From Daucus carota subsp. sativus (taxonomy: Eukaryota > Streptophyta > Magnoliopsida > Apiales > Apiaceae): a DNA stretch of 64,000 nt. The notes beneath the pieces were generated by a model. The model searched no databases. It saw nothing but the letters and a program-made list of their open reading frames with translations, and was not told the DNA's origin. The stretch spans positions 1,823,131 to 1,887,130 of the forward strand of contig NC_030381.2 in NCBI RefSeq assembly GCF_001625215.2, in the 5' to 3' direction. How positions within the stretch are numbered: the stretch's first letter is position 1; each line of letters starts with the position of its first letter. This document shows positions 23,255 to 63,554 of the stretch, one piece after another. A program made the translations under genes and the position numbers.

Positions 23255-23256
23255 AT

Positions 23257-31760: not shown

Positions 31761-32107
31761 ATCAAGGTAACGGGAGGAGAAGTATAAGGTGATACAATTA
31801 TTCTTCAGTAAGTGGTAGACAGGAACTTATTCATTACCACTGAAGAATTCAATGAAGCTGCTGATTGTTCTTTGCATAATGGAATGTTTTGAATTCTCTT
31901 CAAGACAGACTATGAGGATTATCTGGCAGGTAAGCAAGAACCATGGAAATACAGGTGATATGCACATCTGTTGTTTCTATTCATGAAATCTGGAAATGTA
32001 TTATATGATCCAGAAACTTTGTAGCATTATTTACTAGTCCAGGACTTTACTTTTTCTAGTGTTAGTTGAGTTATCCTCCAGAGGATTTGCTTGTTATGAT
32101 TAACAAA

Positions 32108-32122
32108 CAAATAGGGGGAGAT
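32108..32122 (+). other. Polypurine tract
   Basis: AAATAGGGGGAGAT directly precedes the TGTAAGTC start of the 3' LTR, as expected for the plus-strand primer of reverse transcription. Confidence 0.85.
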
Positions 32123-34538: not shown

Positions 34539-34834
34539 AAAACCATGTATCTTGATGTGTTCCTTCTTCACAATGCCTACCTGTTCAGATGAACATTAAC
34601 ATGGAATTGATTAAGAGAACACATTGTACTAGACAAATGTTTTGGACATTGGGGAGTATGAGAAGATTACTTGAACAAGGAAGGTTGAAAAATTCTTCCG
34701 CTGATAACCTTGAAGCTGAATAACCTGATACATTAAACAAACTGTTAAACTGTATAAAATATGCAAATAAAAAGTATGCCAACATAAAGCAAAATATGCC
34801 CACCATTCGGAGCTCAGGGTCTCGAACTACAGTA

Positions 34835-37733: not shown

Positions 37734-38882
37734 TTACCAAAAGTCATCATCAGTCGCCACTGACGTGGATGAGGACAGATCAGCCTCTTCCTCAAACTCC
37801 ATCTCCAACTCTGGCTCACCGAATTCTGGAGAATCAATATCAGCAAGGTTCTTTAAATCAACAACAGAAAGCTCGTCTAAGCGCTTCACGACTAAGTCAG
37901 CAGCTCCAAGTTCGTATACTGGATGCTTGCTAGCAACAGCCACACACTTCATTCGTGCATCATGAGCTGCCTCCACAGTTTGATTAGAGTTTCCAAACAC
38001 AATACAACGCTCAGGTAAGAACTGTAAAAGTTGTGCTGCATACATAAACATCTCTGGATCTGGCTTTCCTCTATATACATCTTCCGCTGTCACAATCACA
38101 CTGAAAACCCCTTCAATCCCAATAGCTCCAATCGCATTTTCAAGAGTTTTCCTTGGCCGGGTGGATACCAGGGCAATTGGTATCTTATAATGTATCAAAA
38201 CATCTACAAACTCTTGAGAACCAGGTCGAAATCTATATATTCCACCCTGCAAAGATTGGTAAATCTCCTCCTTTCTTGTTGCCATTCTTCTCAGCTGAGA
38301 GGGCTCTCTTGCCCAGCAAAGAACTTCAGAGATCGCTTGCTCATTTTTCATACCTTCAATTCTCCGAGTGACGAAAGTCGGTGGAGGTGATTTCCCTTCT
38401 TCCTGAGAAAGAATCAACCAAGCCTGCTTTTCAAGATCAGGATTTTCCTCAATTAAGACTCCTTCCCATTCAAATATAGCACCTAACCACCCACACCCCA
38501 TCCTTTCTTGTCGCAGCAATGGATTCTGAAGTGCAGCGTTATCAGCCCTGTTCTCTGGAGGCCACAAACTAGGCTTGCGATCTACACCACTATCAGACCC
38601 ATGATTAAAATTCCTAGGTAACCTCTCCTCATCTTGATAAGAATAAGCTTCTTTCGCCAACCCCATAGCCTGAGCCTTAACCAATATTCTCCTCAACGGA
38701 CGACCAACACCCACCCCCCGCAAAGAGCTACAACATACCAATTTTCTACAGAGAAAATCATTTTGTGGAATCCTGACAAAACCAACTGCCTTCTTCTTAC
38801 CTCCAACATCCTTACACTGATGCAATCCAAGTACCGGGCTGTGTCTCAAAACAGAAGTAGCACTAATGGACTCAACCATCAT
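37734..38882 (-). CDS. PYRP2: HAD-family riboflavin pathway phosphatase, PyrP2-like, chloroplastic
   Basis: A single open frame of 382 codons starts at ATG 38880-38882 (a second ATG follows immediately). The first 70 residues are Ser/Arg/Lys-rich with few acids and look like a chloroplast transit peptide. The HAD fold follows: motif I region GAIFEWEGVLIEENPDL (134-150), cap GKSPPPTFVTRRIEGMKNEQ, motif II ALVSTRPR (237-244), motif III RGKPDPEMF (271-279), motif IV VFGNSNQTVEAAHD (295-308). The tail is acidic and ends TDDDFW. It resembles Arabidopsis PyrP2 (At4g11570), which dephosphorylates 5-amino-6-(5-phosphoribitylamino)uracil in plastid riboflavin synthesis. Motif I shows Glu138/Glu140 where HAD enzymes usually have Asp-x-Asp, and motif IV has GN instead of GD. 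I believe the Arabidopsis protein shares this, but the substrate call rests on similarity. Confidence 0.88.
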   Translation of the reverse strand: MMVESISATSVLRHSPVLGLHQCKDVGGKKKAVGFVRIPQNDFLCRKLVCCSSLRGVGVGRPLRRILVKAQAMGLAKEAYSYQDEERLPRNFNHGSDSGVDRKPSLWPPENRADNAALQNPLLRQERMGCGWLGAIFEWEGVLIEENPDLEKQAWLILSQEEGKSPPPTFVTRRIEGMKNEQAISEVLCWAREPSQLRRMATRKEEIYQSLQGGIYRFRPGSQEFVDVLIHYKIPIALVSTRPRKTLENAIGAIGIEGVFSVIVTAEDVYRGKPDPEMFMYAAQLLQFLPERCIVFGNSNQTVEAAHDARMKCVAVASKHPVYELGAADLVVKRLDELSVVDLKNLADIDSPEFGEPELEMEFEEEADLSSSTSVATDDDFW

Positions 38883-42131: not shown

Positions 42132-42259
42132 ATTTTTAATGGAAAATGTTCCACAACCAAAGGTGGATAACTAGCTTATCCAACCAACTGATCTCTAGCC
42201 GTCCAAAATAGGACAATCAACGCACAGAATTCAAAGTAGATCCTGGATAATACGCATAA

Positions 42260-42390: not shown

Positions 42391-42629
42391 TCCGCACAGC
42401 TTCAAAAACTAAAAACACGACCTCTTCTTCCTATACACCATTTTTAGAGCATACAAACCCAATACACACAAAATACTAGCTTGGATCTTTATTGGAGCTT
42501 ATATTCGAGTTTAAAAGCTAGCTTGGATCTTTATTGGAGTTTAAAGCTTGAAATTTGAAGCTTATAGCTTGAAGCTCGGAGCTTGGAGCTTTATTGGACT
42601 TCTTTATTAAGGTTAGATTTCATATTTTC

Positions 42630-45050: not shown

Positions 45051-45628
45051 TTTTATTTGTATGCCGATGTATCTTAATTTCTTATGAAAATATTTGTAGA
45101 ATTTTGTGTGATTTTAATTTCGTATGATTTTAATTGATATTATGTTTGTTTGCATTTGGTATTTTGTAGAATTTTATTTGTTTGCATTTTGTAATTTTTG
45201 TGGTGCAATTGCTAATTTTGTATGATTTTAGTTAATTTTGTATGAATTTAGTTGATATAATTGCTCTGTTTTTAAGGGTGCACAATGAAAACTGCTCTGT
45301 TTTCATTGTTTTCACTGTTTTCATTGCTCTGTTTTTAATTTTATGCTTACGCTAGATTATATAGCGTAAGAACAGTCCAAATTGCTCTGTTTTCTAATTT
45401 TATACTTACGCTACATTATATAGCGTACTTACGCTATATAATGTAGCGTGGTCAAGCATCGGAAACCGACGCTTTGCCTGGGAACTGACTGATTGACTGA
45501 TTGCCTGGAAACCGACGCTCCAGTATATCAATTTCTCCTATATATTTTCATCTCCATTTTCTCCATCTTCATCTCCATTTTCATCTCCATTTCTCCATCT
45601 TCATCTCCATTTCTCCATTTTCATTCCT
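45051..45628. repeat. Spacer with palindromic ACGCTA...TAGCGT and GCTCTGTTTT repeats
   Basis: This holds ACGCTAGATTATATAGCGT (45349-45367), ACGCTACATTATATAGCGT (45408-45426) and ACGCTATATAATGTAGCGT (45431-45449), plus several ATTGCTCTGTTTT copies and a CTCCATTTTCATCTCC pyrimidine repeat (45538-45625) just before the small acidic frame. The pyrimidine tract could be the leader of that frame. Confidence 0.65.
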
Positions 45629-45892
45629 ATGGCAGATCTACCAAAAAAATTTTGGTTCGGTGATGAGCACGAAGAAGATGAGCACGAAGAAGAGGTAAAG
45701 CGGCTTTTTGCCGAGATGGATGTTTGTTTGAAAGAATTCGAGGAGGAGGAGGAGAAGGAGGCCGAGGTGGAGGAGGAGGAGGAGGAGGAGGGGCATACTC
45801 GGGAAGAGCTCGTGGCGATTTTCGAAAATTATATCAAAGAGTTGCAGGAGTTGGACGAGGAAGAGGACGAGGAGGAGAAGAAGAAAATGTAA
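45629..45892 (+). CDS. Small highly acidic protein of the MULE
   Basis: ATG to stop, 87 codons, starting MADLPKKFWFGDEHEEDEHE. The middle (KRLFAEMDVCLKEFEEE) and the HTREELVAIFENYIKELQEL segment look amphipathic and helical between Glu-rich runs. It lies in the transposase direction, 578 bp after the transposase stop and before the convergent PMD-Ulp1 gene. A pyrimidine-rich leader precedes it. The length, the real helix-like segments and the placement inside an otherwise intact element favour a gene, but the GAG/GAA repeat content could create an open frame by chance. No known family is recognised. By position it invites comparison with the accessory gene of maize MuDR, but no similarity is claimed. 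Confidence 0.45.
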   Translation: MADLPKKFWFGDEHEEDEHEEEVKRLFAEMDVCLKEFEEEEEKEAEVEEEEEEEGHTREELVAIFENYIKELQELDEEEDEEEKKKM

Positions 45893-45899
45893 TAATGAA

Positions 45900-46624
45900 G
45901 AAGAAGATGTAAAATAATTTTAATGAAATTTATTAATAAAATTTCCATGTTTATTAAATTTTGTCTTGTTCTTGTTGGTTTTAGATTTTATCTTGTTGTT
46001 AGTTAGATTTTGTTTTTTAGTTAGATTTTGTCTTTTTGTTGTCTTTTGGATTTTTGTTAGATTTTGTCTTTTTGTTGTCTTTTGGATTTTAGTAAAAAGG
46101 AGTTGGGTTTTGATTTGGAGTGATTTTGGTTTTAAAAATCAGAGGTTGATCTGGGGATGAAACGTGAAGTGAAGGTGTGTGCTGGTACGCTATATTATGT
46201 AGCGTAAACCCAGAGGGCATAATTGCTCTGTTTTCTCCGCTACATAATACAGCGTAAAGCCAGAGCGCCTCAGAAGCTCTGTTCTTATCTGTGTTTACGC
46301 TATATAATATAGCGTAAACCCAGAGCGCCTCAAAGAGGCTCTGTTTTTTTGTTTCTTACACCTAAAAACAGAGCCAAACCTCAAAGGTGCTCTGTTTTAC
46401 AAAACCTGTAACAAAATCCATCAACAAAATCATACAATCCCATCAACAACAAAATCCATCAACAAAATCTAAAACAAAATCTAACGATCAATCCATAAAC
46501 GAAATCTAACAATCCATCAACAAAAAAATCTAAACAATCCATAAATGAAATCTAACAATCCATCAATACCAAAATCCTAACAATCCATCAATAAATTACA
46601 ATCCATCTAACAAAATCTAACAAT
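45900..46624. repeat. Spacer between convergent MULE genes with palindromes and short tandem repeats
   Basis: The first part (45960-46090) is a TTTTGTC/TTTTGGATT tandem repeat. Then come palindromes ACGCTATATTATGTAGCGT (46187-46205), CCGCTACATAATACAGCGT (46237-46255) and ACGCTATATAATATAGCGT (46297-46315), each beside GTAAACCCAGAG-like text. The last part (46400-46620) is an almost G-free AATCCATCAACAAAATCTAAC tandem repeat running into the 3' end of the PMD-Ulp1 gene. Confidence 0.65.
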
Positions 46625-46930
46625 TTATAATCCGGCTAATCTAGCTTGAAGCGATGTTTCCGTTGGATGACGGGCTATGCCTTTATGAAGCTCCCATGCG
46701 ATGCGATGACGAAAATTTTTTATAACATCTTCATTCCAATCCGTCCCAAGCCAGTTTTCAGAATTACAAGTCAAAATGCAATCCACGTATTTCATGAGGA
46801 ACACACCACAATCAATACAATTTTTCTGCTTGGGTCGTTCCACCACATTCTCTACTTGTGGATATATAATCGCATCTTCCGGGAATCTCTCGGGGGCCAA
46901 GCGATGAAACATGATAGGTATAATTTGTTC
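46625..46930 (-). CDS. PMD-Ulp1 gene, exon 5: protease catalytic cysteine
   Basis: Last exon on the minus strand, 101 codons plus TAA. It starts after a TATTATAG acceptor and carries the oxyanion Gln and the nucleophile in RPKQKNCIDCGVFLMKYVD. Counting the gene as joined, these are Gln839 and Cys845, the expected six residues apart. The rest (WNEDVIKNFRHRIAWEL) matches the helical C-terminal end of Ulp1/SENP-type C48 proteases, which cleave SUMO or SUMO-like proteins. Confidence 0.85.
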   Translation of the reverse strand, partial: EQIIPIMFHRLAPERFPEDAIIYPQVENVVERPKQKNCIDCGVFLMKYVDCILTCNSENWLGTDWNEDVIKNFRHRIAWELHKGIARHPTETSLQARLAGL

Positions 46931-47019
46931 CTATAATATACAAAGAAATTAAACTATATTAATTAATACGAAGCACTTGGAAGTAAATCAAAAGATAATA
47001 GAAGGGATTAGAAATTTAC

Positions 47020-47595
47020 CACAACAACAAACTCCTTTCTATATAATTCTCGTAGAGACATGCAAGGGGCATCGTCATATAGAGAATCGAATAGGGTAAT
47101 CCGAAAGTCCTTTACGGACCATAAGAAGAGTATCCAATGTCCGTCCGTGGCGATTGGTATTATAATGTAGTCAAAATCGCAACACTTAATTGCTCCTTTG
47201 TCCATTGTGCCATATGACACGCAATCAGTATCAAACTGTGCCCATTCTTTGGCCGTTCTCTTTAAAAGATTCTTCTTTTTGATATGATATGATATCATCA
47301 ATGGAGCAAACCATGGACTCATATAATAAAATCTTGCAGCCTTCTCTGACTGACTGTAATACATCCTATCCCTCTCCATGACCAACTTACAATACTCATC
47401 AACGATTGAGTCCTCGACTAGGTTGCCCGGTGCTATTGATCTCAGAGAACGTTCTTTGCAGTGTGTCGGTATATCAGCCAAATCAATTGGTTGTCCACTC
47501 CACCAATGTGCTTGCAACCAGTCCACCTTGCTTTGGTTGAGGGGTTTGAGAAGATGTCCCTTTTCATATCGAGGTACCGGCATCGTGATAAAATC
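47020..47595 (-). CDS. PMD-Ulp1 gene, exon 4: protease His and Asp
   Basis: 192 codons on the minus strand between a TTTTTTAAG acceptor and a GTGGTAAAT donor. It holds the active-site His in IATDGHWILFLWSVKD (His765 in the joined numbering) and the Asp in RITLFDSLYDD (Asp782), the 17-residue spacing expected of C48 proteases. Upstream segments include WLQAHWWSGQPIDLADIP and MERDRMYYSQSEKAARFYYM. With exon 5 this forms a complete catalytic set (His, Asp, Gln, Cys). Confidence 0.88.
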
Positions 47596-47720
47596 CTTAA
47601 AAAAGACAAGATGAGAAAAAGAGCTACAATTAGACAAGATGAGAAAAAGAGCTACAATTAGACAAGATGAGAAAATGAGCGACAAGTGACAAAAAAATCA
47701 AACTAAAAGCGGATCGTTAC

Positions 47721-48170
47721 CTCGGTAGGGAAGTCCTCGATTGGAGGAATAGGATCCTCACGAGAAATTGGTACATTATAATAATCAGCAAAATCTATTA
47801 CCGGCCGATAAACAAAATGAGGTGCACTAGGCTCGACATCATGCTGTGCACTGGGCCCAACATCATACTGAGGTGCACTGGGCCCGACATCATACTGTGT
47901 AGTCTCGAAAGGAGAACTTGTAGGATGTTCATAGGCTTCGTACTCTTTGAAGAAATCACTCCCAGACGGTTGACTCGATGACTCCGTGGTCCTTCTTGCC
48001 TTCCTTTTGGGCAGCACATTCTTGAAGTCGGGCCTCTCATAAGTCGGACCGAAAGTCTCTAACATGAGCTCGTCATAACCCCTGACAAATGTCGGTAATA
48101 CGGAATCATGGAAAACCGGGGGCATCTCATGCAGACAGAGCTCGCTCATACCTCGAGCAGTCGTGATGAT
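47721..48170 (-). CDS. PMD-Ulp1 gene, exon 3: linker
   Basis: 150 codons on the minus strand, from a TGTATAG acceptor to a GAGGTAACG donor. This is a linker between the mobile domain and the protease: MSELCLHEMPPVFHDSVLPT, basic VLPKRKARRTTESS (possible nuclear signal), then a short internal repeat of QYDVGPSAP units. The frame joins exons 2 and 4 without shift or stop. Confidence 0.75.
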
Positions 48171-48281
48171 CTATACAGAAAATAATAGAAGGCCACCATT
48201 TATCAACATATACACAATGCAATAAACTCAACATATAAACTCAAGATGGCAGTAAAATAGAAATGCGATATTTAAACATAC

Positions 48282-48583
48282 CAAATCCATCGCCTTGGAC
48301 ACGTCGCATTTGTCACGGGCTTGTTGGTACACGGCCGGATTTTTCGTGGCCCTCGATGGCGGTATAATCTTTAGCTTCGTGATATTGTAGTACCAATCCA
48401 TATAGGCTTCCTCCGAAATCTCATTCTCCGCTGGCTCCACAATACCAACTCCATTTTGGACGAAGTTATTCCACATGTCTACATACTGCTGCCGGTAGAA
48501 TGGATGCACTTGCATGAAAGGATTGTCATTGGTATACCTCAAACCTCTCATGTCTGCAGGGGGATCTGGAGGTATACACAACG
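48282..48583 (-). CDS. PMD-Ulp1 gene, remainder of exon 1 beyond the retrotransposon plus donor
   Basis: About 99 codons on the minus strand continue the mobile-domain frame directly (PPDPPADMRGLRYTNDNPFM...). Bases 48579-48583 (CAACG) are the target duplication made by the LTR retrotransposon. The segment ends KCDVSKAMDL before the GTATGTTT donor. Without the retrotransposon this belongs to the same exon as 61104-62192. Confidence 0.8.
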
Positions 48584-50361
48584 TGTTAGGTCCAAAGTAT
48601 CGTAGAAGGGGGGGTTGAATACGATACTCACTACAATTTAAAATTCTTTCGAATCTTGCGGATAAACAAATTGCAGTTCTGTAATGGGTTTCGTGTTCCG
48701 GATATTTATTGGGTCGGTTTCTGAGGATATGAAAATATTAAACCAACACACAATATTTTCCAAGGTATATCTGTATATTGATAAATACCTCGAAGGTGCT
48801 ATAAATCCAAACCCGAAGGTTGGCTACAATGACCACTCCTCTAAATATTACAAGCCCTATCCACTACAAATATTTATGGTACAAAACTAGGCTAGGGTGT
48901 GTGTATATTTGAGAGAGTTTGTGCAAAGCACTTGGTCATCCATCCCGAAGGATGTGTGTGTATTGTGAGAACCACAATCACATATTTATAGGCTTTCATA
49001 AACTAACCATGGTTAACGAGTTCGTCCTGGACGACTTGAGTTCGTCCTGGACGGATTCGATTTAACAAAATAAATCTAACTCCAATTGTGTGCATGAAGG
49101 GGCGCAGGTTTTATATACACACATATATATATATATAACAAAGTTGCGCTTTGAACATATATATATGTATATATAGAAAGTCAAAACTTGCGCCAGTCAA
49201 TTCTTGCGCTTCAACATATCTTCACTGTTGCCACTGTAGTTTCAGTACTTGGAGAAATTCCAAGTAACCAGAGTTGCGCTTGGATGAGTCAAACTTGGCG
49301 CCAGGTGAGTCAATCATTGCGCCTCACATTGCACTCCACTTGCTGGGACTTAGGCAAATGCTTCACACACTACATTGCTCTTTAATCATAGTCAGAGGCG
49401 CAACATTTGACTTGGTCAAATGTTGCGCTTTGACCAAGGTCAAATGATGCGCCTGAGCATCACTGTGTTGCCTGTGACTTAGCCAAATAAAGAGAATGTT
49501 GCGCCAAGTGCAATGACAGGAGGCGCAACATTTGACTTTAGTCAAATGTTGCGCTCCTTCCTTCAGTATACTGATAGCTTCACTTAGCCAAAATCCTGAT
49601 GAATAAACCAAGCGCAAGTTTTGACTTCTGGTCAAACTTGGCGCCTGATTTATTCACAGTGTATACAATGATTGTATACTTAGAAGATTTTGCCTTAGAC
49701 TACCCATTTGTATCACTTATTAAAATATATATATACATATATATAGAATTAATTGTGTTTAAATAATTACTTGAATTATTTATGTTCAAGTAATTCACAA
49801 TTAATATATATATATATATACATATATATATAATAATAAGTTCCTTTGGCAATATTCTGGAGCAGCTCGATTGACTTGATCAATTAATCCGTTGATCGAA
49901 TCCACTGAATACTTTCGTACGTCCTGACGTCCTGTGCACTGGTCTGGTTCACGAACGACTCGAACTGAAATAATCCCTTGAATTCTTTTGCTTAACAATA
50001 TACTTGATCAGTCATTCCGGGTTAGTTTATGCTTCAGTTTGTTGATTATAAATAACCAACCAAGACATATAGAAATATCTTGCTTCAGGGGTTGCACTGA
50101 AATCTTTAGAGTACTTGGACAACATCTTCATTGCTTCCACAATCTTGAATACTTCAATCTTTATTCTTCACTGAGGCATGAACATATTAATGAACTTCTT
50201 CCAGTGAGCTTATTCCTTCAAGACTGTAGATGGCTTCTTCACCCTTTGTCTTCGTATCTTCCAATTCCGGTGCAGGCGTAGTGTTATTTACTTGTCCCGT
50301 TCTATTGTTGAGTTATCATCCCTATGTAACAGATAGGGTTGTCTTTACATTTAGACTTACA
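48584..50361 (-). repeat. 3' LTR of retrotransposon copy 2 (1,778 bp)
   Basis: TG...CA ends; TATA box (minus) at 48983-48990; GCGCAA/TTGAC array at about 49105-49650 including two near-perfect hairpins; tandem GAGTTCGTCCTGGACG (49018-49053). It is shorter than the LTR of copy 1 mainly because the long AT tract is reduced to short TA runs. Confidence 0.93.
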
Positions 50362-50376
50362 ATCTCCCCCTATTTG
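50362..50376 (-). other. Polypurine tract of copy 2
   Basis: On the minus strand CAAATAGGGGGAGAT directly precedes the TGTAAGTC start of the 3' LTR, identical to copy 1. Confidence 0.85.
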
Positions 50377-53300
50377 TTTGTTAATCATAACAAGCAAATC
50401 CTCTGGAGGATAACTCAACTAACACTAGAAAAAGTAAAGTCCTGGACTAGTAAATAATGCTACAAAGTTTCTGGATCATATAATACATTTCCAGATTTCA
50501 TGAATAGAAATAACAAATGTGCATATCACCTTTATTTCTCTGGTTCTTGCTTACCTGCCAGATAATCCTCATAGTCTGTCTTGAAGAGAATTCAAAACAT
50601 TCCATTATGCAAAGAACAATCAGCAGCTTCATTGAATTCTTCAGTGGTAAGGAATGAGTTCATGTCTACCACTTACTGAAGAATAATTGTATCACCTTAT
50701 ACTTCTCCTCCCGTTACCTTGATCAGGTTCCCCTTAGTGATAAGTAGTTGTCTCCTCTTAGATGAAAGATCAATCCTCCTCCTTATTTGAAAGAAGAATC
50801 TCCCCCTCAGTAGTACACCGCTAAAGAGTAGTTTACTCCCCCTTAGTTGTAGACAGCAGAAGAAAGCTAACTTACTTTTTCTTCCCCCTTTCATATATTC
50901 TCCCCCTAAATATATTCTCCCCCTTAGTTGTGGAATCCTCCGAGGATATGTGGTATCAAATATGGTCAAGGAACGTGTCCAATACATCCTGTACCAAAAG
51001 ATAATATCCCCGTAGAGAACTAAACAACGCTAAAGTTAGGGTCGAAGAAAGAGTTCAGAAGAAGGGCTTACTTTGATTGGGTTGGTCCCTATGCTGAAAG
51101 AATAGGTTCCAAACGGAAAAGTAATTAGTAAAATTGACATTCCAGTAACAACATCCACTTTGTCTTTAGGTATAAATTTGGTAATTAGTAGGTGTCTCAC
51201 TAAAATGTTCTGCAGGTGTATCACTCAACACTCAATTTTCTCTCGGTTTTTGGGTAAGGGTGTCACTCACGAGTTCTGTAAGTATATCCCTCCACACAAA
51301 TACTGAGCTTCCAAAATGCTGAGTACCTGCAAGAAAATCACCTTAGCCACCCTTAAAGGGGGTCACCGGTGGTGCAATGGGAGTTCGTAATTCCCAGTCC
51401 CTGCAGACTCATCGGATAAATCCGAATCATGGTCCACAAGTTGCCAACCACTAAGTGGCTTATCCAATTAAGGATCCAGAGTTGTTTGCTCTGGGAGGTT
51501 AGACAAAGGCTTAATTATGGCAAAGGCCTAAGTCCTCCTCAATGTCTGTGAAGACACTTGATTCAAGAGAATCATCAACCATAAATTCACACCGTGAAAT
51601 GGAATGAACCGTAGTTGCTTCCGTCAATTCTTTCAACAGCTTGTGAGCTTTCAATACCAATTATTATTATATGTAACTCACACGTGTTTCACTCTTCTCA
51701 ATTTCCTATGTGTTTGCACTCACTCATGCTCACATATTTCTCATTCAGATATCTCACTGGTCCTTCTCAGAATCTCACCAAGTGTTTAACTCTCAGTGTT
51801 TGGCTCACAGTGTTTCTCTCAGCACTCAAAGTATGGTCTTCTGTACCTGTATGAGAAAATCACCATAGCCCCTTCAAGAGAGGTCACTGGCGGTGCAATG
51901 GGGTTTCGTAAATCCCCGATCCTCAACCGACTCATCAATAAATTGACTCATAGTCAGAGAGTTGCCGATCTCCTATAAATAGGAAATCCATTCCGATTGG
52001 ATCCAGATCTGTTCTTATCTGGGGAGGGAGACGAGAATCCTGAAGATTTGGCAATTGAGATCCTCGTTTCCTCCTTACACCTGTAAAGGCATCAACCATC
52101 TTATTTACCGTAAAATGGTAAATGAAGAAGTTGCTTCTGGAACAAAACCTTTAACCTTACTGTGCACTCTCTTGTATTGTGTCCATAAGATTTTTGTTTA
52201 GGCTCTTCATCAGAGTGATTACTGATGATGTGCTTGACTCAATACAAGATGCTCTGGCTGACGAGCGAATTTCAATGGACTCATCCTTTTGAGAGAATGA
52301 TTCCAGAGACTGTTTAATTGCCTTTTCAGCTCTATATTCTTTTGAGAGAATACAGATGAGCAACAGTTACCTCAAGTTCAAAAACACCTTTTCTCCTTGA
52401 GAGGTAGAGCTGTGGGTACACTATCCCTCACATCCTTATTTGCTGCAACAAGTACAGTTTCTCCCTCATTGACCTCTAGTCTAATAAGTTCCTTATTACT
52501 CCAGGGGGAAAGTTGGGATGTGTTCTGAATTTGGTTTTATAGTCTGGGATAAAGATTGTTGGTTTTCAACCTTATGACTATCTAGGAAAGCCAAGAGGCT
52601 GATTAAGTTCCAAAGAACAGAAAGAGATATAAATGCACTTTAGAAAATCTATGATTTTGAATGAAAGCAATTGCATTTAATCTTTTGAGAAAAATGAACC
52701 AGTTGTGAGCGTAAAATGATTTTCATAAAGAATGACAATCACAACTGATGAAAGAATCAAAGTTTTCCATTAAAAACTTGTTTGAGTACGAGAGTCTGAA
52801 TCTATGCATAAAAGTTTTAAATGAACTTGTCTTTGAAAAAGACACAGACTCTTGTTTCTCACTACAATTTAAAAAGGAAACAAGAAAATTTATGCGCTAC
52901 AGTGTATAAAGAACTCGCCACAATAATTAGTGAAAAGGCATCATACTAGCACATCGTCAAAACAGACGTTGCAAGTGACAAAGATCACCAAGTACACAAA
53001 TACAAGATAATCAATGTCTCGTCCTATGACGCTACATGTATAGATGCAAAATATTCTAAGAAATATTTATGAAATAGAGTAGTGGATACCAATTGTTGAA
53101 ATCAAATGATAAGAAAATTTCTTTAAAGAAACTCACCACTCCAGAACATAAATATGAGACGGAATAAAGATTTTGGTTGTCTCCCTTGTACTCAGAATAT
53201 TAAACACCTAAAATATATTAGCACTAGTGGTTTTAAGAAATATGCAACAATATTTCACTAGTGCCAATACATCACAATCAATTCAAAAATAAAACATCAA

Positions 53301-55794
53301 TAAAGCATCAAAAATAGATACCAATTAAATATTTCAAAAATGAATCAATCATGCTTCTATTATTCTATCAAAGTCAATCATGAAACAAATAAGCATATAA
53401 TTGTCATGGATCACAATTTAACTAAGATAAAATAATAATTACCTACGCAATATCATATAATTATCAAATCAGCATATAACAACTAAAATCATGACAATCA
53501 TACAAAGATATACGCAAGCCCGAGGGAAAGTTGAAGAAAAGTTCACGAGTCTTATACATGTAAGCATTGAGTACAAGTAAACTCACACAACTCCTCGCAG
53601 AAAGTATTAACAATTAATATTAGTGATGTACATATAAGCATCCAAAATATCACTAACACTAAAAGTATCACAACTATATGTAGTTAGACATGAAATAAAA
53701 TATCAATTAATAAATCATCAAATATCTAACACAAACAGTTATGCTTCAAGTATATACACTAATATAAATGGATTCAGCCTAGAGAGAATCTAAGTAACTC
53801 CACAAATACTAGTATATCATGACTAAATTCTAACTAGATTCTAACCACATACCAATTACTGATACAAGTCACAAGTCTAGAAACAAATAAGTCATGCTTC
53901 AGATTTTATACCTATAAAAATGAATTCAACCTAGAAAATAATCCTAAGTATGTTCACAAATACAGATATATCACGACTAGATTATGACAAAGTTCTCTAC
54001 TAGATACCAATTGTTGAAGAGGTATAGATCAAGAAAAATAACATAATTAAGTCATGCTTCATGTCATCTCTAATCATTTAACTCATGAACAAATAAGTCA
54101 CTTAATTGTCATGCACCATAATTTAAATAATTTGAAATAACAAACACTCATGCTAAAACATATAATCACCATCTAAGCATGCAAAACAATAAACATGACA
54201 ATCATATATAATAGCAAAAAGCACGAGGTACCGGATTTTAAATAAATTCACAAGTCCTATGTATAGACAATTTAATACTCATGAATCCATTCAAGAAATA
54301 CGATAGACATGCTCATGAAGGAAGTAATACCTTATAGAAAATATAGTATGTGATCTACTTGCAGTTAAGTAAAAGTGATAAGTTGAATACCTCTGAGACT
54401 TGACATTTCAGTTGATGTACCTTTCTTGTACTGATCAAGTCCAGTGGTTGTTGGCATAAGTCTTGGCAGGTCTAGAATCTTCCAAAATGCGCATATTCAA
54501 AAGATCCTTGACTTCCTTTTATTGCCATCATTCTTTAGGCTAACTAGTAGACCATAAAGTGTTGCAACTTTCCAACAAACTCATCATATCACTAATCTGC
54601 ATTCACTTAGCAATTATCTTGCACAAGTGGCATTAGTCCACATATAATATAATCATGGTATCACAGCACAGATAGTTGTATTGTGTGTGCCTTGTATCAT
54701 GAGAGGTAATAATTTGAATACCAAATATGACTCTAGCAAACAGATATTTAAAATAATATGTTAGTCAGAAGTCATACCATGTTCGTGACGATCATCAGGT
54801 ATTGGATAGCAACTCATAGAGAGCTGGTGAAGAAAGAGCATACAAATTCCGTTGGATCTGCAACTGCAAAGTCCTTGAAATGTTGCATGAAGCTTCATCT
54901 TCTAGCTCACTGTAATATCCTGAACCCGAGTCTCGTCAATGGTGCTTTAGTTCAATCATGAAGGTCGTTGAGTCCCTTAAGATGTAGAGTCCTGAACTTG
55001 AAGATTCTGTTTCCATAATCTTCATAACCTTCTCCTTTGTAATAACCCTAAGCAACCAAATTGGCTTGTCCCTCGTAACAGAGCCAAAAACATCCAGTTG
55101 GAATCTGAATACCCGACAAGTACTAGGTATAGAATTGTCTTTAGGTCAAGGTATCAGAATCCGCACAATCTGCTTTCAAACTGATTGAGATCATCTTGCT
55201 GTGCAATCATTCAATCTGGATCCCTTTAAGAGCTTCTGAATCTTCCTCAAGTTTCACTTCAAATTGAAACCCAAAGAAATAACATTATTTCACAATAGCT
55301 CTTCCAGTCTTCACTTCACCGTTAGGAACATTTAAGAACTAGAACCCGGGAATGATATAGACTCAAACCCTTTGTCTAAGCAGATACGTTCTTGATATGT
55401 TCTGTTCATCTTCAATGTGGTGTTGAGTTTGACTAGTGGATCCACCAAATGCTCCCCCTAAGCTGTTGCTGGGATCTCCTTAATAATCCTTATCCTTGCA
55501 AAGAGATTCTGCTTGGATCTGAATCATTATTATACCAATAATATCACCTTTAACAGCTTGGAGCAAAGTGTCGTTCAATGTCCTGTCCAGACTTACAATC
55601 ACCTTCTGTTGATTAATCACAATCACCCTGTAGACTGTAGACTCCATAGAGTAGCCGCGGAAAGTATTCTTTGATCTTCAAATGCAAGACTTTCGAAGAG
55701 GCATTTTCCTCCAAACACATACCAAAAGTTAGTGTTTGCTTCTGATTGGCCACTGGCAAGAATGGTGTCTTTCTGGATTTATCAATGATCAGGG

Positions 55795-56045
55795 TTCATC
55801 TTGATCAACCTTCATTTGTGACGTCTTGTCCTTCGAACACATACGAACAACACGAAAGAATCTAGAGCAGTCAATGATCATCGCAAAAAGATATTTGGCT
55901 TGTTTTAGACATGACATTAACTGATCCGTAAAAATCCATACGTATCATCTGAAACGGCTCAGTAATGTTGATCATATCTTTGCTTCTGTGCGATGCTCCT
56001 TTGACTTCCCTATTGACATACCTCATAATCTTCATCCACAATGAA
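55795..56045 (-). pseudogene. Copia integrase core remnant in copy 2
   Basis: Collinear with the remnant in copy 1: the minus strand encodes the same CTGAGCCGTTTCAGATGATA region and the DYSR-type stretch, but with additional differences. No intact polyprotein surrounds it. Confidence 0.6.
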
Positions 56046-59000
56046 TTCCAAATGAGGTAGTCCTCTCACCAATTCTCTTCTTACTAATAAAAAGAGGTCC
56101 TTGTTTTGACATACAAGTTTGAGAGCTTCAAGTGCCATAGCTAATACTCATCCGATGAAGCTTCACTATCAAAACAGCTCACTCCATCTTCAATTGAAGT
56201 TCCATATTAGCTATGAGAAAAATTCACATCCTTCTTGATTTAAGATAAAACACTATTCTATGAACTGACATAATGTCCTTTGTCAGAGAACCGTCTGATA
56301 CTAAGAATTTGTGTGCTTTGACTCTTCCAAGAAAGATATTCTTCCATGATGACATTCCAGGAAAACAGGCATGTCCCGTAAGAGAATCTTTGTTGTCATC
56401 TTTCAAAGATTATTGACGGAACTCCTCACACGATCACATTTGCTAACAGGGTACTTTTGTGAATCATATGACTTCAGCTACTCAGCAAACAGAGTGCACC
56501 AAAAATCATATGGAACATATGTAACCTGCAATCACAAATGGAAAGAGTTCTATGGTCCCCAATCATAACTGGGTCCGGATGGATTAGAGATTTTTCTTTA
56601 ACAGTGGTAACAACAGAAGCAGCCTTAACATGCTAATTCTTATCTAGACATTGCCTTAATGTGATTCTCAAACATGCTTTTCTAAAATCAATGCAAGTAC
56701 AAAGACATGCATTCATGACATGAAAATAAACAGACATGATGTTGAGTACACATGGCAAACAGACAAAGATAAGACAAGAGCAAGACAGGCAGTTATGCAA
56801 TTCAGAAGATTCAGTACTCTCTACTTAAACCAATTAACACAAGTGTAATAGGTAGAAAGCAGAATTATAGATATTCAATAATCTCCTAAAATCATAATGA
56901 TCATAGACAAATTAATAATCACATTATCAATTCATACTAATCCCACTCTATTGTTATATGGCATTATACTATCTCTAGTACCTAAGTCAGTTTTAGATCT
57001 AACATGAAGTTCTAAAAGTTCTACTGACACAAGGTAGACATTCCATCATAGAACAAATAAATTCCTTAACAAACAATTTAGATAAATAAGCAAATCTAAT
57101 TGTACTAGGGAATCTGAAAGTAAATGTTTTAACAAAGTTATATATGCTAGGATCATAACCCCTAAAACTAAGAGTCGTGTTCCAAAGGAAAGCTTCTACT
57201 CTCACAATTGCAAATAATCAAATCCTAAATATTCATACACATGTTAAGAATCTGCTAAAGACACATGCACAAGATTATCATCAATCCTAGTTACCAGAAT
57301 AGTCATCTAGCATACTAGTTTAACATTATCTATTGTGATGCTATCATGCTTGTGCTTGTGTGTTAAACAATTCCACTCAGAGATTTATAACATGCTTTGA
57401 ATATAAAGAAATATGTAATGCATAGTTAGAAAGAATTCGTACCTGAGATGTGCAAGTTGAGTCATCTTCAGAGAATGATAGGATAGCCAGATAACCATAA
57501 TGATCCTTCTCATCAGCAACTGATCCAGCTCACACCTTTCCTAAAATAGCATAAGAACTTGTTGTGATGTTTCTTTCAAAACATCCACTTGAATTTCAGA
57601 CAAGCCCTATCATCCTTGTTTGCCGAGGCTTCAATATATATAGCAACCCACCTTTGCTAAAGATACCAAACAATATTGTGTGTATTGACCAACTTAGTTT
57701 TGAAAGCAACCTCCTTGAACTGAACCCTGAAGAGTCACCACTTGAAACCAATGGATTCCATCTGAATCTGACATGACTAAACCTCTCAGATAGTGTTATG
57801 CTAGTCCTTGAAGTTCTGTCCTCACATTCTTCAAAAGTTTTAACTTTCGTCGACTTGAGCTTCCTCAAATTCAGTAGTTACAAACTCTTCTGTTCAATCC
57901 TAAGGTTCCGACATAAATGCACGAAACTGATTTGATGCGGTAGTAACTCGATAATTATATCCTTAAACCTCCACAGTTCTCTGTCTTTGATTCAGTTGAT
58001 TCTGGATGGATTTATCATTGCTACAATTCACTGTGTAATTGTATATCCCTGAATCACTGAGTTAGATTGAAATCCCTTGAAGATTCGTCCGTAAAAACTT
58101 CTCTTTTCCTACTACCAGTGGTGCCATTCAAAGTTGACATTCTGAGCCCTGGAAAGATGCTTCATTGTAGATGTAGCAAATTCCCATCCTGATCTGGTGA
58201 TCTGATAATCAAGTCGGAGTAATTACTCAGATCAAGGCCTGAAGTACCTTCTTCAAAATCCACTTTTAGTAGTACCAAATTAGTCTTCAATAGAATCTTC
58301 TTCGAATCACAATCATCTTTGTCGAACATAGAAAACTGCTTCTAATAATCTTTTGAGAAATCAATTGGATTGGGTCATCAATGTACTTCCATTACCGCTT
58401 CTGAGAATCTGGTATTTGAAAGCCCGATGTTTGTCTTGTAATCTGTCAGCCTGATCTGTCTCAACTAAATGTCAATCTGATTTGTCTTGGAGTAGAATAA
58501 TTCAAAAGGTTACGGGACACTTGATTATTTAAACTAAGTTTAAATTATAAAGAAAATAAATTTAAAAATAAGTTTTAAGAGATGAAAGAAAATAAAGTAT
58601 AAAATAAACTTAGTTAAATCTATAAAGTAAATTTAATTATATTTAAAAAAAATAAATTCAAATAAATTCATAATAAACTGAATAAGTTTAGAATAAATTT
58701 ATTTCAAATTCATTTAGTAAATATATTAAAATTTATTGTATAAATTTGATTTTTTGAAAATATTCAAGTGTCTCATCTCCAATTAAATCATTGTTTCTAA
58801 AACAAACCAAATTGAACCCTTGAACCTGAACTTAGATCCATAATCAGTAAAATCCTCTTAAATTTATATTCTAGATTTTAACTTAAATTTAAATCATAAA
58901 CTATACAAATTTAAATAATAAATTTATAAAAATTTATGATAAGCTTGGTAAAGTCTAAGAGTAAACTTTACAAGTCTAAAATAAATTTAAACAAATTTAA

Positions 59001-59313
59001 TAATTGAATTTGGTAAAGTTTATAAAGTAAATTTAATTAGGTTTATAAAATAAATTTAATTAATTCATAATAAACTCAATTAATAAGTTTAAAATAAATT
59101 AAGTCAAATTTATAAAATAAACTTATTAAAATTTAAAGTATAAATTTATAAGTCCTGGTCCAAAGTTCAGTATCCGACGGATAATCCTTGCTTAGGCCTA
59201 TGGACAAATTCAGCAACACAAACCGGAAGAACATTTCCCCTAATCAAATATCGAAAGCTAGGTTCTTGATTTTCTGTACGATAAGGATCCTGATTTGTAT
59301 ATCAATCAACCTC

Positions 59314-59325
59314 GCTCTGATGCCA
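59314..59325 (-). other. Primer-binding site of copy 2
   Basis: On the minus strand TGGCATCAGAGC lies two bases after the end of the 5' LTR, the same site as in copy 1. Confidence 0.85.
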
Positions 59326-59327
59326 AT

Positions 59328-61103
59328 TGTTAGGTCCAAAGTATCGTAGAAGGGGGGGTTGAATACGATACTCACTACAATTTAAAATTCTTTCGAATCT
59401 TGCGGATAAACAAATTGCAGTTCTGTAATGGGTTTCGTGTTCCGGATATTTATTGGGTCGGTTTCTGAGGATATGAAAATATTAAACCAACACACAATAT
59501 TTTCCAAGGTATATCTGTATATTGATAAATACCTCGAAGGTGCTATAAATCCAAACCCGAAGGTTGGCTACAATGACCACTCCTCTAAATATTACAAGCC
59601 CTATCCACTACAAATATTTATGGTACAAAACTAGGCTAGGGTGTGTGTATATTTGAGAGAGTTTGTGCAAAGCACTTGGTCATCCATCCCGAAGGATGTG
59701 TGTGTATTGTGAGAACCACAATCACATATTTATAGGCTTTCATAAACTAACCATGGTTAACGAGTTCGTCCTGGACGACTTGAGTTCGTCCTGGACGGAT
59801 TCGATTTAACAAAATAAATCTAACTCCAATTGTGTGCATGAAGGGGCGCAGGTTTTATATACACACATATATATATATAACAAAGTTGCGCTTTGAACAT
59901 ATATATATGTATATATAGAAAGTCAAAACTTGCGCCAGTCAATTCTTGCGCTTCAACATATCTTCACTGTTGCCACTGTAGTTTCAGTACTTGGAGAAAT
60001 TCCAAGTAACCAGAGTTGCGCTTGGATGAGTCAAACTTGGCGCCAGGTGAGTCAATCATTGCGCCTCACATTGCACTCCACTTGCTGGGACTTAGGCAAA
60101 TGCTTCACACACTACATTGCTCTTTAATCATAGTCAGAGGCGCAACATTTGACTTGGTCAAATGTTGCGCTTTGACCAAGGTCAAATGATGCGCCTGAGC
60201 ATCACTGTGTTGCCTGTGACTTAGCCAAATAAAGAGAATGTTGCGCCAAGTGCAATGACAGGAGGCGCAACATTTGACTTTAGTCAAATGTTGCGCTCCT
60301 TCCTTCAGTATACTGATAGCTTCACTTAGCCAAAATCCTGATGAATAAACCAAGCGCAAGTTTTGACTTCTGGTCAAACTTGGCGCCTGATTTATTCACA
60401 GTGTATACAATGATTGTATACTTAGAAGATTTTGCCTTAGACTACCCATTTGTATCACTTATTAAAATATATATATACATATATATAGAATTAATTGTGT
60501 TTAAATAATTACTTGAATTATTTATGTTCAAGTAATTCACAATTAATATATATATATATATACATATATATATAATAATAAGTTCCTTTGGCAATATTCT
60601 GGAGCAGCTCGATTGACTTGATCAATTAATCCGTTGATCGAATCCACTGAATACTTTCGTACGTCCTGACGTCCTGTGCACTGGTCTGGTTCACGAACGA
60701 CTCGAACTGAAATAATCCCTTGAATTCTTTTGCTTAACAATATACTTGATCAGTCATTCCGGGTTAGTTTATGCTTCAGTTTGTTGATTATAAATAACCA
60801 ACCAAGACATATAGAAATATCTTGCTTCAGGGGTTGCACTGAAATCTTTAGAGTACTTGGACAACATCTTCATTGCTTCCACAATCTTGAATACTTCAAT
60901 CTTTATTCTTCACTGAGGCATGAACATATTAATGAACTTCTTCCAGTGAGCTTATTCCTTCAAGACTGTAGATGGCTTCTTCACCCTTTGTCTTCGTATC
61001 TTCCAATTCCGGTGCAGGCGTAGTGTTATTTACTTGTCCCGTTCTATTGTTGAGTTATCATCCCTATGTAACAGATAGGGTTGTCTTTACATTTAGACTT
61101 ACA
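59328..61103 (-). repeat. 5' LTR of retrotransposon copy 2 (1,776 bp)
   Basis: Near-identical partner of 48584-50361, with one fewer TA unit near 59868-59880. All short frames inside it are duplicated in the other LTR and are not genes. Confidence 0.93.
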
Positions 61104-62192
61104 CAACGGCATATCGAATTGCCTTGGGACCCTTTCTGGGAGCTGGTACTCTACATCCTCAAAGTAATGGAGTGGTACACGGGCAATGCCGGCAATTAGA
61201 GCTCTCTCGAAATGCGCATCAGGCCTCCGATAGAAACGTGCATATGGCCTCCAACGCACCCAATCCAAATAGAAATTATCGAACATACCTCTGTATGCAT
61301 CGATGTTGTGATGAACGTTGTAGAACTTTGACCTCCCTGCAGAGACTGGAGCAACAGCCCATGCTAATGCCCTAGGCCATATCATCCTCGTATTTTCTGC
61401 TATCAAAGGTTGTCCCGGGCGCAACCTCTCACGAGACCATAGCATCAAAACTGTTGTACAACCGGATATGGACCTGACATCCTTTCTACTAGCCTCTTGC
61501 AAATTCCTATATAGATATGCAAGAACTGCAGCCCCCCAAGCATATCCATAAATTTTGCTCGGATCCTCTAGAAATAGGATCAGTCGAGGGTGGACGACAT
61601 TGTTGGACTTGGTAGGAAACAGTATTGCCCCACACAAGTAGAGAACATATGCCCGAGTGTATATCACCATCATATCCCGATCTGTACTCGAAGGGCAAGT
61701 ACCATACTGCGCTCTCAAAAATCTCAACTTCACACCACCACGGTCCAAGGCAGATATCCTTTGCTCCTCTGTAAGTTCTGGATCGTGCCATCTTCGAAGC
61801 CATGTACTCTTATGTGGAATATCATCATCGGATCTAATTGGCTCTCCAACCACTGGTAGACCCATCAACATATATACATCTTCAAGGGTCACAGTCATCT
61901 CCCCGAAAGTGAAGTGAAAAGTGTTGGTCTCGGGTCTCCAACGCTCCACTAAAGCTGTGATCAAGCTAACATCATTCTGCATAACCGACTTTGGGTTTAC
62001 AAACATCCCAAATCCCCATTGCCGCAATAAGTGGACTTGATAATCATGTAAATGCCATTCGCCGAGATTAGATGTACTCTGACGGATTGTTAGCTTTTCT
62101 CTTAACCCCCCGTTCCAGATTGTGGTGCTTATGTGATTAGCTTGGTCATAGAGCACAGAATTATCGACTGGGCCACAATAATCATTCGCCAT
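61104..62192 (-). CDS. PMD-Ulp1 gene, first exon: plant mobile domain
   Basis: 363 codons on the minus strand from the ATG at 62190-62192 (MANDYCGPVDNSVLYDQANH) to the retrotransposon junction. The protein shows the hallmarks of the plant mobile domain (PMD, MAIN/MAIL1-like): LITALVERWRPETNTFHFTF, GEMTVTLEDVYMLMGLPVVG, then YLCGAILFPTKSNNVVHPR and YAWGAAVLAYLYRNLQEA. PMDs occur both in host genes that affect silencing and genome stability and inside plant transposons. The biochemical role is unknown. The open frame itself runs on to 61044, but its last 18 or so codons are LTR sequence. With the four segments at 48583-46625 it makes a 905-residue PMD-protease protein, disrupted now only by the retrotransposon. 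Confidence 0.88.
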
Positions 62193-62229
62193 ATCTACAA
62201 ATAAAATGAGATCATGTTATTATTCTCAA

Positions 62230-62995
62230 CATCAACAAACCAAACTCCAAATTAAATTCCAAATCAAACTAAAATATCAAACTATTCCAAATCTATACTA
62301 TCAAACTCAAAATCCAAATAAAATCCAACAAAATATTTCAAATTCACCAAATTCTACAATATCAAAGTCCAAATCAAAATCAAATTCCAACTTTTCCAAA
62401 ATCTACACTATCATACTCAATATCCAACCAAAAATCCAACAAAAAAAATTCAACTTCACCAATTCTACAATATTAAACTCCAAATCACCACTATCATACT
62501 CAAAAATCCAACTAAAAAACCAACAAAAAAATTTAGCATCACCAAATTCTACAATATTAAACTCCAAATCAAAATCCAACTTTTCCAAAATCTACACTAT
62601 CATACTCAATATCCAACCAAAAATCCAACAAAAAATCCAAGAAAAAAAATTCAAGTTCACCAAATTCTACAATATGGCCTCTCCAAATCAAAATTAAATT
62701 CCAACTTTTCCAAAATCTACACTATAATACTCAAAATTCAACAAAAATAATTCAACATCACCAAATTCTACAATATTAAACTCCAAATCAAAATCAAATT
62801 CCAACTTTTCCAAAATCTACACTATCATATTCAATATCCAACCAAAAATCTAACAAAAAAAATTCAACTTCACCAAATTCTACGATATTAAACTCAAAAT
62901 TAAACTAAAAATCTAAATTTTCCAAAATATACACAATCAAACCCAAAATCAAACTCAAAATTAAACTAAAAAATTCAACTTCACCAATTTCTACA
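62230..62995. repeat. G-poor tandem repeat upstream of the PMD-Ulp1 gene
   Basis: About five to six copies of an 85-118 bp unit built on TCTACAATATTAAACTCC, then CAACTTTTCCAAAATCTACA, CTATCATACTCAATATCC and CACCAAAT. The plus strand is almost free of G for some 750 bp, so the strand transcribed for the PMD gene is nearly free of C. The 163-codon plus-strand frame here is a by-product of the repeat. Confidence 0.75.
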
Positions 62996-63299
62996 TACTT
63001 CGACCAAAAAACCCAACATCGAACAGAAAATCAAGCTAAAAAACTTAAACTTCACATACATTATTGTATATAAACATTCATAAAGCGAAATCAAATCTTA
63101 CATACAAGAAAATACAAACCTATACATACACAAATACGCACATATACATACAAATCGGACATATACATACCTCGAATTAGCTTTGAATTGCCTTGAATCG
63201 CAAGAACGTGCCTTGAATCGCCTTGAATCGCCTTTAGAATCGTGGTTATCGGTGGTGGTTAGGGTTTTCAGTTGTTATTTTCGTTGATTTTTACTTACT

Positions 63300-63545
63300 A
63301 TCCACGATACGCTATACAATGAAACGAAACCCGGTTCCGTTAAAAAAACCGGCTCCGCTATATGATAGAGCGTAAACCCAGAAGGAAAAAAACCGGCTCT
63401 TCTCTTACGCTCTATGATATATCGTATACGCTTTTTTAAATCGCGTATATTGTTTTAATCCTAGCCGTCCATTGCTAAATGGACGATTATAAATAAGTTG
63501 GATATATTTTAATAGTTATCCACCTTTGGTTGTGGAACAAGCCCC
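63300..63545. repeat. Right subterminal and terminal region of the MULE
   Basis: Contains CCGCTATATGATAGAGCGT (63355-63373), ACGCTCTATGATATATCGT (63407-63425) and CGTATACGC (63423-63431), counterparts of the left-end motifs. The terminal inverted repeat TAGTTATCCACCTTTGGTTG-type sequence (from about 63513) ends at 63545. Confidence 0.75.
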
Positions 63546-63554
63546 ATTTTTAAT

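Follow-up and report, generated by a model that had tools for sequence, protein, structure and literature searches.

In this study, we describe a MULE family of carrot with a four-exon gene that runs opposite to the transposase and specifies a protein of 905 aa in which a plant mobile domain (PMD) is followed by a linker and an Ulp1/C48 protease with all four catalytic residues. One copy lies in the window, by which we mean the whole 64,000-nucleotide stretch of DNA analysed (Table 1), and the anatomy of the PMD–C48 element as described here is, in our judgement, practically certain. As to its role, we give a probability of about 0.4 to the reading that the protein is a VANC-like trans-acting counter-silencing factor with an attached Ulp1-type protease.

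Table 1. Features of the element in the window (position 1 is the first nucleotide of the window)
Feature	Position	Strand	Basis or remark
Target-site duplication ATTTTTAAT, left	42132-42140		identical to 63546-63554
Terminal inverted repeat, left, 27 bp	42147-42173	+	reverse complement of 63513-63539, identical
MULE transposase (FAR1, MULE, weak SWIM), open frame	42594-45050	+	Pfam; same gene in L010 and L012
Intergenic region of the converging gene pair, with 10 AGCGTA/TACGCT half-sites	45051-46624		
Exon 4 (segment 5): last part of the C48 domain, carrying Gln839 and Cys845	46625-46930	-	Pfam, copies, residue alignment
Exon 3 (segment 4): first part of the C48 domain, carrying His765 and Asp782	47020-47595	-	Pfam, copies, residue alignment
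Exon 2 (segment 3): linker	47721-48170	-	comparison with other carrot copies
Exon 1, second part (segment 2)	48282-48578	-	contiguous with segment 1 in L009, L011, L012, L014, L015
CAACG target duplication of the inserted retrotransposon	48579-48583		identical to 61104-61108
LTR retrotransposon inside exon 1	48584-61103		LTR pair and 5-bp duplication
Exon 1, first part (segment 1): PMD	61104-62192	-	open frame and Pfam profile match
5' non-coding region of fusion gene, repeats and 4 AGCGTA/TACGCT half-sites	62193-63545		
Terminal inverted repeat, right, 27 bp	63513-63539	-	pairs with 42147-42173
Target-site duplication ATTTTTAAT, right	63546-63554		identical to 42132-42140

The original prediction assembled the gene from five segments, all of which are open in the frame it gave. 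The segments are real, and the LTR retrotransposon sits within exon 1, so that segments 1 and 2 are one split exon, the exons number four rather than five, and the window copy, presumed intact, is broken. An intron of 12.5 kb between these two segments is ruled out by the near-identical LTRs (1778 bp, no mismatches, one gap) and the 5-bp duplication that flank the gap, and further by intact copies without any sequence at this position. The retrotransposon has no long reading frames, its longest stop-to-stop frame being 110 aa; its insertion is recent and the fusion gene of this copy is disabled. The PMD proposed at the N-terminus and the C48 domain proposed at the C-terminus are both recovered by Pfam profile matches, the former in segment 1 (PF10536, E 1.5e-58, 199 bits against a cut-off of 34.9) and the latter in segments 4 (1.4e-10) and 5 (1.4e-5), or at E 1.9e-17 when residues 373-905 are taken as a single protein. 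The C48 region also matches SENP1 structures (best E 4.3e-5), and the predicted catalytic numbering proved exact on the residue alignment.

Uninterrupted copies, which the original prediction proposed to look for, are present in the same genome: the 905-aa frame is whole in L009, L011 and L012, where exon 1 is continuous from the PMD into the linker and three GT-AG introns keep the frame, confirming that PMD and C48 lie within one MULE gene. These copies make it barely conceivable that two separate neighbouring genes were fused by an over-eager gene model, a suspicion that the database model P0002 (LOC135151355) invites by starting at residue 373, without the PMD; P0002 itself has three splice junctions identical to those of the whole copies, and Cinnamomum P0061 is annotated as a PMD-C48 protein. 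The genome holds 76 C48 loci in our search; 41 of them are closely preceded by a PMD on their own strand, and at none of the 76 is there a PMD in any other arrangement within 6 kb (neighbourhood count over all 118 PMD rows and 48 DUF1985 rows: 41, 6, 29 and 0), so that the separate PMD and protease genes that could have undone the prediction are not seen within this distance. When the C48 region was searched against a protein database, P0002 of carrot was the only match, and thus the spread of the fusion across plants rests on one annotated protein, P0061. Among 20 fetched PMD loci, six are without a C48 piece (L010, L016, L020, L021, L027 and L028). As L010 keeps the PMD and a full transposase match, the protease is not needed in cis.

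A transposase domain, a 9-bp target-site duplication and terminal inverted repeats place the element among the MULEs. The transposase, claimed to be intact, has an open frame with MULE (PF10551, E 5.9e-32) and FAR1 (E 2.8e-15) domains above the Pfam cut-off and a SWIM match below it (17.4 against 19.6 bits), and the defined ends that had also been claimed were found as the duplication and the identical inverted repeat of Table 1; at other copies the duplication is unreadable, since these sit in (TA)n runs. Wherever fetched loci show transposase pieces, these are on the strand opposite to the PMD, and the C48 domain of the second gene is reverse to the transposase, which is the orientation of VANC and Kaonashi elements. 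A frame at 37734-38882 (382 aa, equal in length to the PMD frame), considered as a second PMD copy, is a HAD hydrolase by Pfam.

Across subfamilies, the fusion persists and evolves under purifying selection. Between the window copy and L018, dN/dS is 0.15 for the PMD and 0.25 for C48, and between L023 and L026 it is 0.12 and 0.13, with bootstrap upper bounds below 0.4 for the PMD and C48 comparisons; among the youngest copies there are too few changes for the ratio to be used. The Peptidase C48 catalytic set (His765, Asp782, Gln839 and Cys845) is retained in all nine aligned carrot copies, a count that leaves out P0094, a DUF1985–C48 protein of Nicotiana whose excised region misaligned. The original prediction, which would have been weakened by relaxed selection, thus withstands this check between subfamilies (0.12–0.25). 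In this regard, it is very unlikely, and already disfavoured, that the gene is a passenger of no use to the element, that is, a transduplicated host PMD-protease gene or two host fragments. Host gene capture is common in MULEs (PMC2528002, in the part available), unfused PMD and C48 genes are present in databases and several copies (L014, L015, L017) are decayed; against this stand dN/dS values well under 1, the retained residues, the frequency of the fusion among C48 loci, and the fact that most carrot MULE PMDs form a single clade apart from MAIL2. Protease activity is not kept everywhere, since the catalytic D, Q and C are lost in all three carrot DUF1985-C48 copies read, and N replaces the catalytic D in the Cinnamomum PMD-C48 protein.

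Inside one element, the fusion gene and the transposase differ in age: in L018, dS is 0.24 for the transposase and 1.0-1.3 for the fusion gene. In closer pairs, identity is 87-89% for the transposase against 73-77% for the second gene, and the difference vanishes in the deepest pairs (e.g., 45% and 47%). The separate histories in L018 disfavour a tight partnership and thereby an accessory of transposition (MURB or VANB type), which would work with the transposase at the element ends, unrelated to silencing, for instance by freeing the transposase, or a repair protein, of a ubiquitin-like modifier. Such an accessory would fit the opposite strands of the two genes, dyad sites close to both ends, and comparable selection on both genes (0.15-0.25 for the fusion gene, 0.27 for the transposase). 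We consider it rather unlikely, since PMD relatives are silencing proteins, according to the available part of PMC5418596, and 10 of the 22 half-sites of the window element lie between the genes.

These half-sites (AGCGTA/TACGCT) number 22 in 3380 nt of non-coding DNA and 0 in 5500 nt of coding DNA; they occupy three non-coding regions, including those near both element ends, and are laid out as dyads, with 6-bp half-sites flanking an AT-rich spacer. Genome-wide, the dyad pattern occurs at 184 sites and the reversed pattern at 0, and among the sites listed, 11 of 50 exact dyads lie away from known copies of the window subfamily. The subfamilies examined each carry a distinct dyad motif, mostly in non-coding DNA, CCGCGG or AGCGCT replacing AGCGTA/TACGCT in others, so that candidate sites of the VANC short-motif type are present. 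The dyads take the forms TACGCT-N9-AGCGTA, CCGCGG-N7-CCGCGG and CAGCGCT-N5-AGCGCTG. The 5' region of L012, included in the site table, has four CCGCGG, no AGCGTA and no TIR that was found. The non-coding bounds of L018-L027 are approximate, and the 'coding' interval of L027 takes in non-coding DNA, with six sites there at 3875-3974, at and beyond the point where the open frame stops. Transposons commonly have subterminal binding sites for their transposase, and the arrays could instead be bound by the transposase through its FAR1 zinc finger, the PMD-C48 protein having its target elsewhere, perhaps competing in a general way with MAIN/MAIL silencing complexes. The window element and L018 share their half-site and 87% of transposase identity, with PMDs only 73% identical, in favour of this proposal; many sites are central, though, and their spread over three non-coding regions resembles VANC targets (PMC5735166, as partly available), and we judge the proposal distinctly unlikely.

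Profile comparison indicates that the PMD is likely a remote homologue of DUF1985, the domain of the Arabidopsis VANC anti-silencing proteins. Database PMD proteins, mostly named MAIN-LIKE, match DUF1985 by hhalign at 92% (E about 6e-7), with negative comparisons at or below 0.5%; MULE-only PMDs give a weaker 48-79%, and PF09331 (DUF1985), a mark of VANC and Kaonashi proteins, gives no match to either P0001 or P0002 even when E values of up to 10 are allowed. A counter-defence role of the fusion, which we infer as the original prediction did, gains a basis in this probable homology and in the subfamily-specific dyads. In the counter-silencing reading, the PMD half would recognise the dyad sites of its own element, or chromatin bound at them, and bring in the C48 half, which would free silencing proteins of SUMO or another ubiquitin-like modifier and let the element's genes be expressed; as the dyads differ between subfamilies, only kin elements would be affected. 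Precedent is provided by VANC (PMC5735166, PMC10398659, in their available parts), for which counter-silencing by a plant transposon is known in detail in Arabidopsis. Weighing against this mechanism are the weaker MULE-only match, the loci without C48, the catalytic residues lost in relatives, possible binding of the dyads by the transposase, and the statement, in the available part of PMC6117577, that SUMO is an unlikely substrate of Kaonashi ULPs. It is somewhat doubtful whether all of the following would hold jointly: that PMD and DUF1985 belong, as its two branches, to a single transposon-encoded superfamily of targeting domains; that PMD-C48 is the TIR-MULE counterpart of VANC/Kaonashi, a sequence-specific anti-silencer whose dyad code turns over between subfamilies, which travels between elements as a module independent of the transposase, and which uses its protease half to reverse modifier-dependent silencing; and that MAIN and MAIL1 are domesticated relatives of transposon anti-silencers. 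If the PMD–DUF1985 link is true, the intact protease and the dyad sites would extend the VANC system to many plant MULEs and tie it to silencing by MAIN/MAIL1 in the host, with defined DNA sites and the catalytic Cys845 open to experiment.

Several parts of this arrangement have precedents, which we cite from the available portions of each source. In VANDAL elements (PMC5735166, PMC10398659), the MULE likewise encodes a second gene, VANC, whose N-terminal domain is likely homologous to the PMD, short family-specific motifs lie in non-coding DNA, and the transposase is better conserved than the second gene, as in the closer carrot pairs; unlike the carrot element, VANDALs have degenerate TIRs, VANC carries DUF1985, its motifs are not described there as dyads, and its anti-silencing is demonstrated, whereas that of PMD–C48 is proposed. 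Kaonashi (KI/KIU) MULEs and other ULP-bearing MULEs and CACTAs (PMC13317346, PMC2528002, PMC6117577) also bring C48 into a MULE, reverse to the transposase in KI-MULEs, but KI-MULEs are described as non-TIR and the fusion partner in carrot is a PMD; the same group of reports records ULP in TIR-MULEs of melon. PMDs in MULEs are known as well (PMC5418596 and the table of PMC6446971, where we read 'PMD' as plant mobile domain), being antisense to the transposase in most MUDR-group members (PMC6446971), and Ikeda 2017 (PMC5418596) already proposed counter-silencing by a MULE PMD; there, the PMD is fused to or beside the transposase, and the available parts mention no C48 fusion. The MAIN/MAIL proteins (PMC7156037) share the PMD but are host genes outside any MULE context; that source states that PMDs may be fused to protease, kinase or phosphatase domains, naming no C48 example in the part available. 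The literature thus already mentions MULEs with a PMD, MULEs with an Ulp1 and the joining of a PMD to a protease, and the fusion is not new in kind. What goes beyond the original prediction is the likely homology of PMD and DUF1985, the dyad motifs of each subfamily, and the differing ages of fusion gene and transposase.

The fusion of a plant mobile domain (PMD) with a Ulp1-type protease domain (C48) had been predicted to lie inside a transposon with a transposase and defined ends, and the anatomy of both the element and the fusion gene is solid. The MULE carries two converging genes, and the transposase domains, the target-site duplication and the terminal inverted repeat were all found.

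Features of the MULE in the window
Feature	Position	Strand	Evidence
MULE	42141-63545		flanked by a 9-bp duplication (ATTTTTAAT); terminal inverted repeat of 27 bp, identical at the two ends
Transposase	42594-45050	+	FAR1, MULE, SWIM match (below cut-off)
PMD–C48 gene of the MULE		-	
LTR retrotransposon	48584-61103		CAACG duplication; two 1778-bp LTRs, 0 mismatches, one gap

The searched genome comprises 441 Mb in 11 contigs, with the window at C1:1823131-1887130; carrot loci with PMD, C48 or DUF1985 matches carry L numbers. A (TA)n-like run flanks the MULE in 11 of 11 loci with an end found (L009-L013, L015-L019 and L021), the window copy with its duplication ATTTTTAAT being the exception, which suggests a preference for AT microsatellites.

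The five segments of the original prediction stand as a gene, since the whole 905-aa protein is encoded without interruption by three other carrot loci (L009, L011 and L012), in four exons separated by GT-AG introns of 98, 97 and 89 nt. What did not stand is the 12.5-kb gap between segments 1 and 2 as an intron: the LTRs and the CAACG duplication mark it as an LTR retrotransposon, in which no stop-to-stop frame exceeds 110 codons. As this insertion splits two segments that are contiguous in L009, L011, L012, L014 and L015 (L014 with one internal stop, L015 with four), the window copy is a recent casualty. The model of the carrot database protein LOC135151355 starts downstream of the retrotransposon, at residue 373; the protein is identical to residues 373-905, and its sequence is compatible with both the window's pieces and L009; the C48 parts of these two show zero differences. 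Another retrotransposon of this type, oppositely oriented, occupies 20841-34539 (LTRs of about 2417 bp, 99.9% identical), with about 95% identity to the first in the longest aligned pieces, and the window also holds an inverted repeat at 5041-5704 (212-nt arms, 94% complementary, 240 nt apart).

As had been claimed, PMD and C48 form one gene, not two. A genome search for C48, with 150 of 168 candidates scored, gave 92 matches that merged into 76 loci, and at least 41 of these have a same-strand PMD match 0.26-2.7 kb upstream, a lower bound because 112 of 361 PMD candidates were scored. The neighbourhood count took in all 92 C48, 118 PMD and 48 DUF1985 rows; among the matches listed, DUF1985, a domain of the Arabidopsis VANC anti-silencing proteins, lies upstream on the same strand at six loci, and neither domain is present at 29, including the window copy, whose PMD has been displaced by the retrotransposon. 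PMD and protease as separate genes would have told against the fusion, and no other arrangement of PMD or DUF1985 within 6 kb of C48 occurs at any of the 76 loci among these matches. Conversely, C48 pieces are present in 14 of 20 fetched PMD loci and absent from L010, L016, L020, L021, L027 and L028, L010 retaining its PMD and a full transposase match. Beyond carrot, annotated fusions include a PMD–C48 protein in Cinnamomum micranthum (P0061) and a DUF1985–C48 protein in Nicotiana attenuata (P0094).

The predicted catalytic residues His765, Asp782, Gln839 and Cys845 are conserved in all nine carrot copies aligned (L007, L009, L015, L017, L019, L022, L023, L024 and L026), although L015 and L017 have stops elsewhere and L007 is a C48 locus whose closest PMD match, in L020, is 22 kb off. 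The Cinnamomum set is H/N/Q/C, and three carrot DUF1985–C48 copies (L041, L042 and L043) show H/N/M or L/S; these three are Kaonashi-like genes whose protease is probably dead. Purifying selection was borne out by NG86 dN/dS with bootstrap: 0.15 (0.09-0.22) for the PMD and 0.25 (0.14-0.38) for the C48 part between the window and L018, 0.17 and 0.23 between the window and L019, and 0.12 and 0.13 between L023 and L026, ratios that are rough because dS exceeds 1, with at most 28 of 300 replicates lost to saturated dS. Among the youngest copies some dN/dS values, calculated from very few changes, approach or exceed 1, as is expected for copies after insertion.

Profile comparison makes the PMD and DUF1985 likely remote homologues. 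Twenty PMD proteins matched nine carrot DUF1985 frames with 90% probability (E 1.6e-6 over 211 columns, against at most 0.1% for the reversed control and for five controls with shuffled columns), and 70 PMD rows matched 34 database DUF1985 proteins with 86% (E 5.5e-6, against 0.5% for the reversed control and no more than 0.2% for ten shuffles). Seventeen database PMD proteins, mostly named MAIN-LIKE, gave 92% (E 5e-7 and 6.5e-7), MULE-only PMDs 48% and 79%, and comparisons with transposase and C48 profiles 0.1-0.3%; the Pfam DUF1985 model matched carrot MAIL2 weakly (E 0.22). In a tree of 27 PMD rows, where several long branches make placements tentative, the carrot MULE PMDs form a single 100/100 group separate from MAIL2 proteins, except that of L028, which falls outside. 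The group also takes in a row from Apium, the remaining domains of which resemble those of a retroelement, and the Cinnamomum PMD–C48 protein clusters with Cinnamomum proteins named MAIL2. The fusion may be ancient, or it may have formed on two separate occasions.

A putative counter-silencing role of the PMD–C48 protein is the best-supported reading, though unproven. In the available portions of the sources, MULEs are reported to have captured the PMD, with anti-silencing proposed (Ikeda 2017, PMC5418596); PMD is described as fused to protease, kinase or phosphatase (Nicolau 2020, PMC7156037, which cites Babu 2006 on PMD proteins) and as antisense in most MUDR-group MULEs (Dupeyron 2019, PMC6446971). 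Those portions also cover Ulp1 in MULEs and VANC/KIU (a 2026 review, PMC13317346, and a grapevine paper, PMC2528002), VANC motifs (Hosaka 2017, PMC5735166; Sasaki 2023, PMC10398659), both transposon PMDs as counter-silencers and the subject of MOM1, PIAL2 and SUMO (a 2021 review), and Kaonashi ULPs as probably not acting on SUMO (PMC6117577). We found no open-licence paper pairing any two of DUF1985, plant mobile domain and Peptidase_C48; among the matches listed, none combined the PMD with Ulp1 or C48 except one review, whose available text describes no such gene.

Each MULE subfamily examined repeats short motifs in its non-coding DNA. The 3380 nt of non-coding sequence in the window element contain 22 copies of AGCGTA/TACGCT (four at the fusion gene 5' end, ten between the genes, eight at the transposase end) and the 5500 nt of coding sequence none, with three in the 42,570 nt of window outside the element and one in the retrotransposon. 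L009-L012 have 18-24, none in coding sequence, and L018 and L019 have 10 and 8 against one each in coding; L023-L026 have none, showing instead 8-14 CCGCGG (two in coding), and in L027 AGCGCT is grouped into three clusters, at 839-985, 3875-3974 and 8105-8236, the middle one beginning within the end of the open frame. The units are dyads, among them TACGCT-N9-AGCGTA, CCGCGG-N7-CCGCGG and CAGCGCT-N5-AGCGCTG. The 21-bp pattern has 184 genome sites with at most one mismatch (reversed control, 0). Among the matches listed, 39 of 50 distinct exact sites lie within 16 kb of this subfamily's PMD or C48, a neighbourhood of about 0.25% of the genome, none close to any of 42 PMD rows from other subfamilies and 11 elsewhere; when distance is taken from all 118 PMD rows alone, leaving C48 aside, the count is 38 of 50.

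Finally, some elements are mosaic. L011 and L018 share 66-68% identity as far as position 6205, and from 6239 onwards the identity is 85%, so that an old half with the fusion gene abruptly gives way to a younger half with the transposase. Here dS is 1.26 (PMD) and 1.02 (C48), but 0.24 for the transposase (0.12-0.52 along its length), and the two halves thus differ in age; either the fusion gene passed whole from one element to another, or the half with the transposase was replaced. The 5' region of L012 (560-1800) is devoid of its own subfamily's half-site and terminal inverted repeat and holds four copies of CCGCGG, the site of a different subfamily, which may reflect an exchange or truncation between elements.
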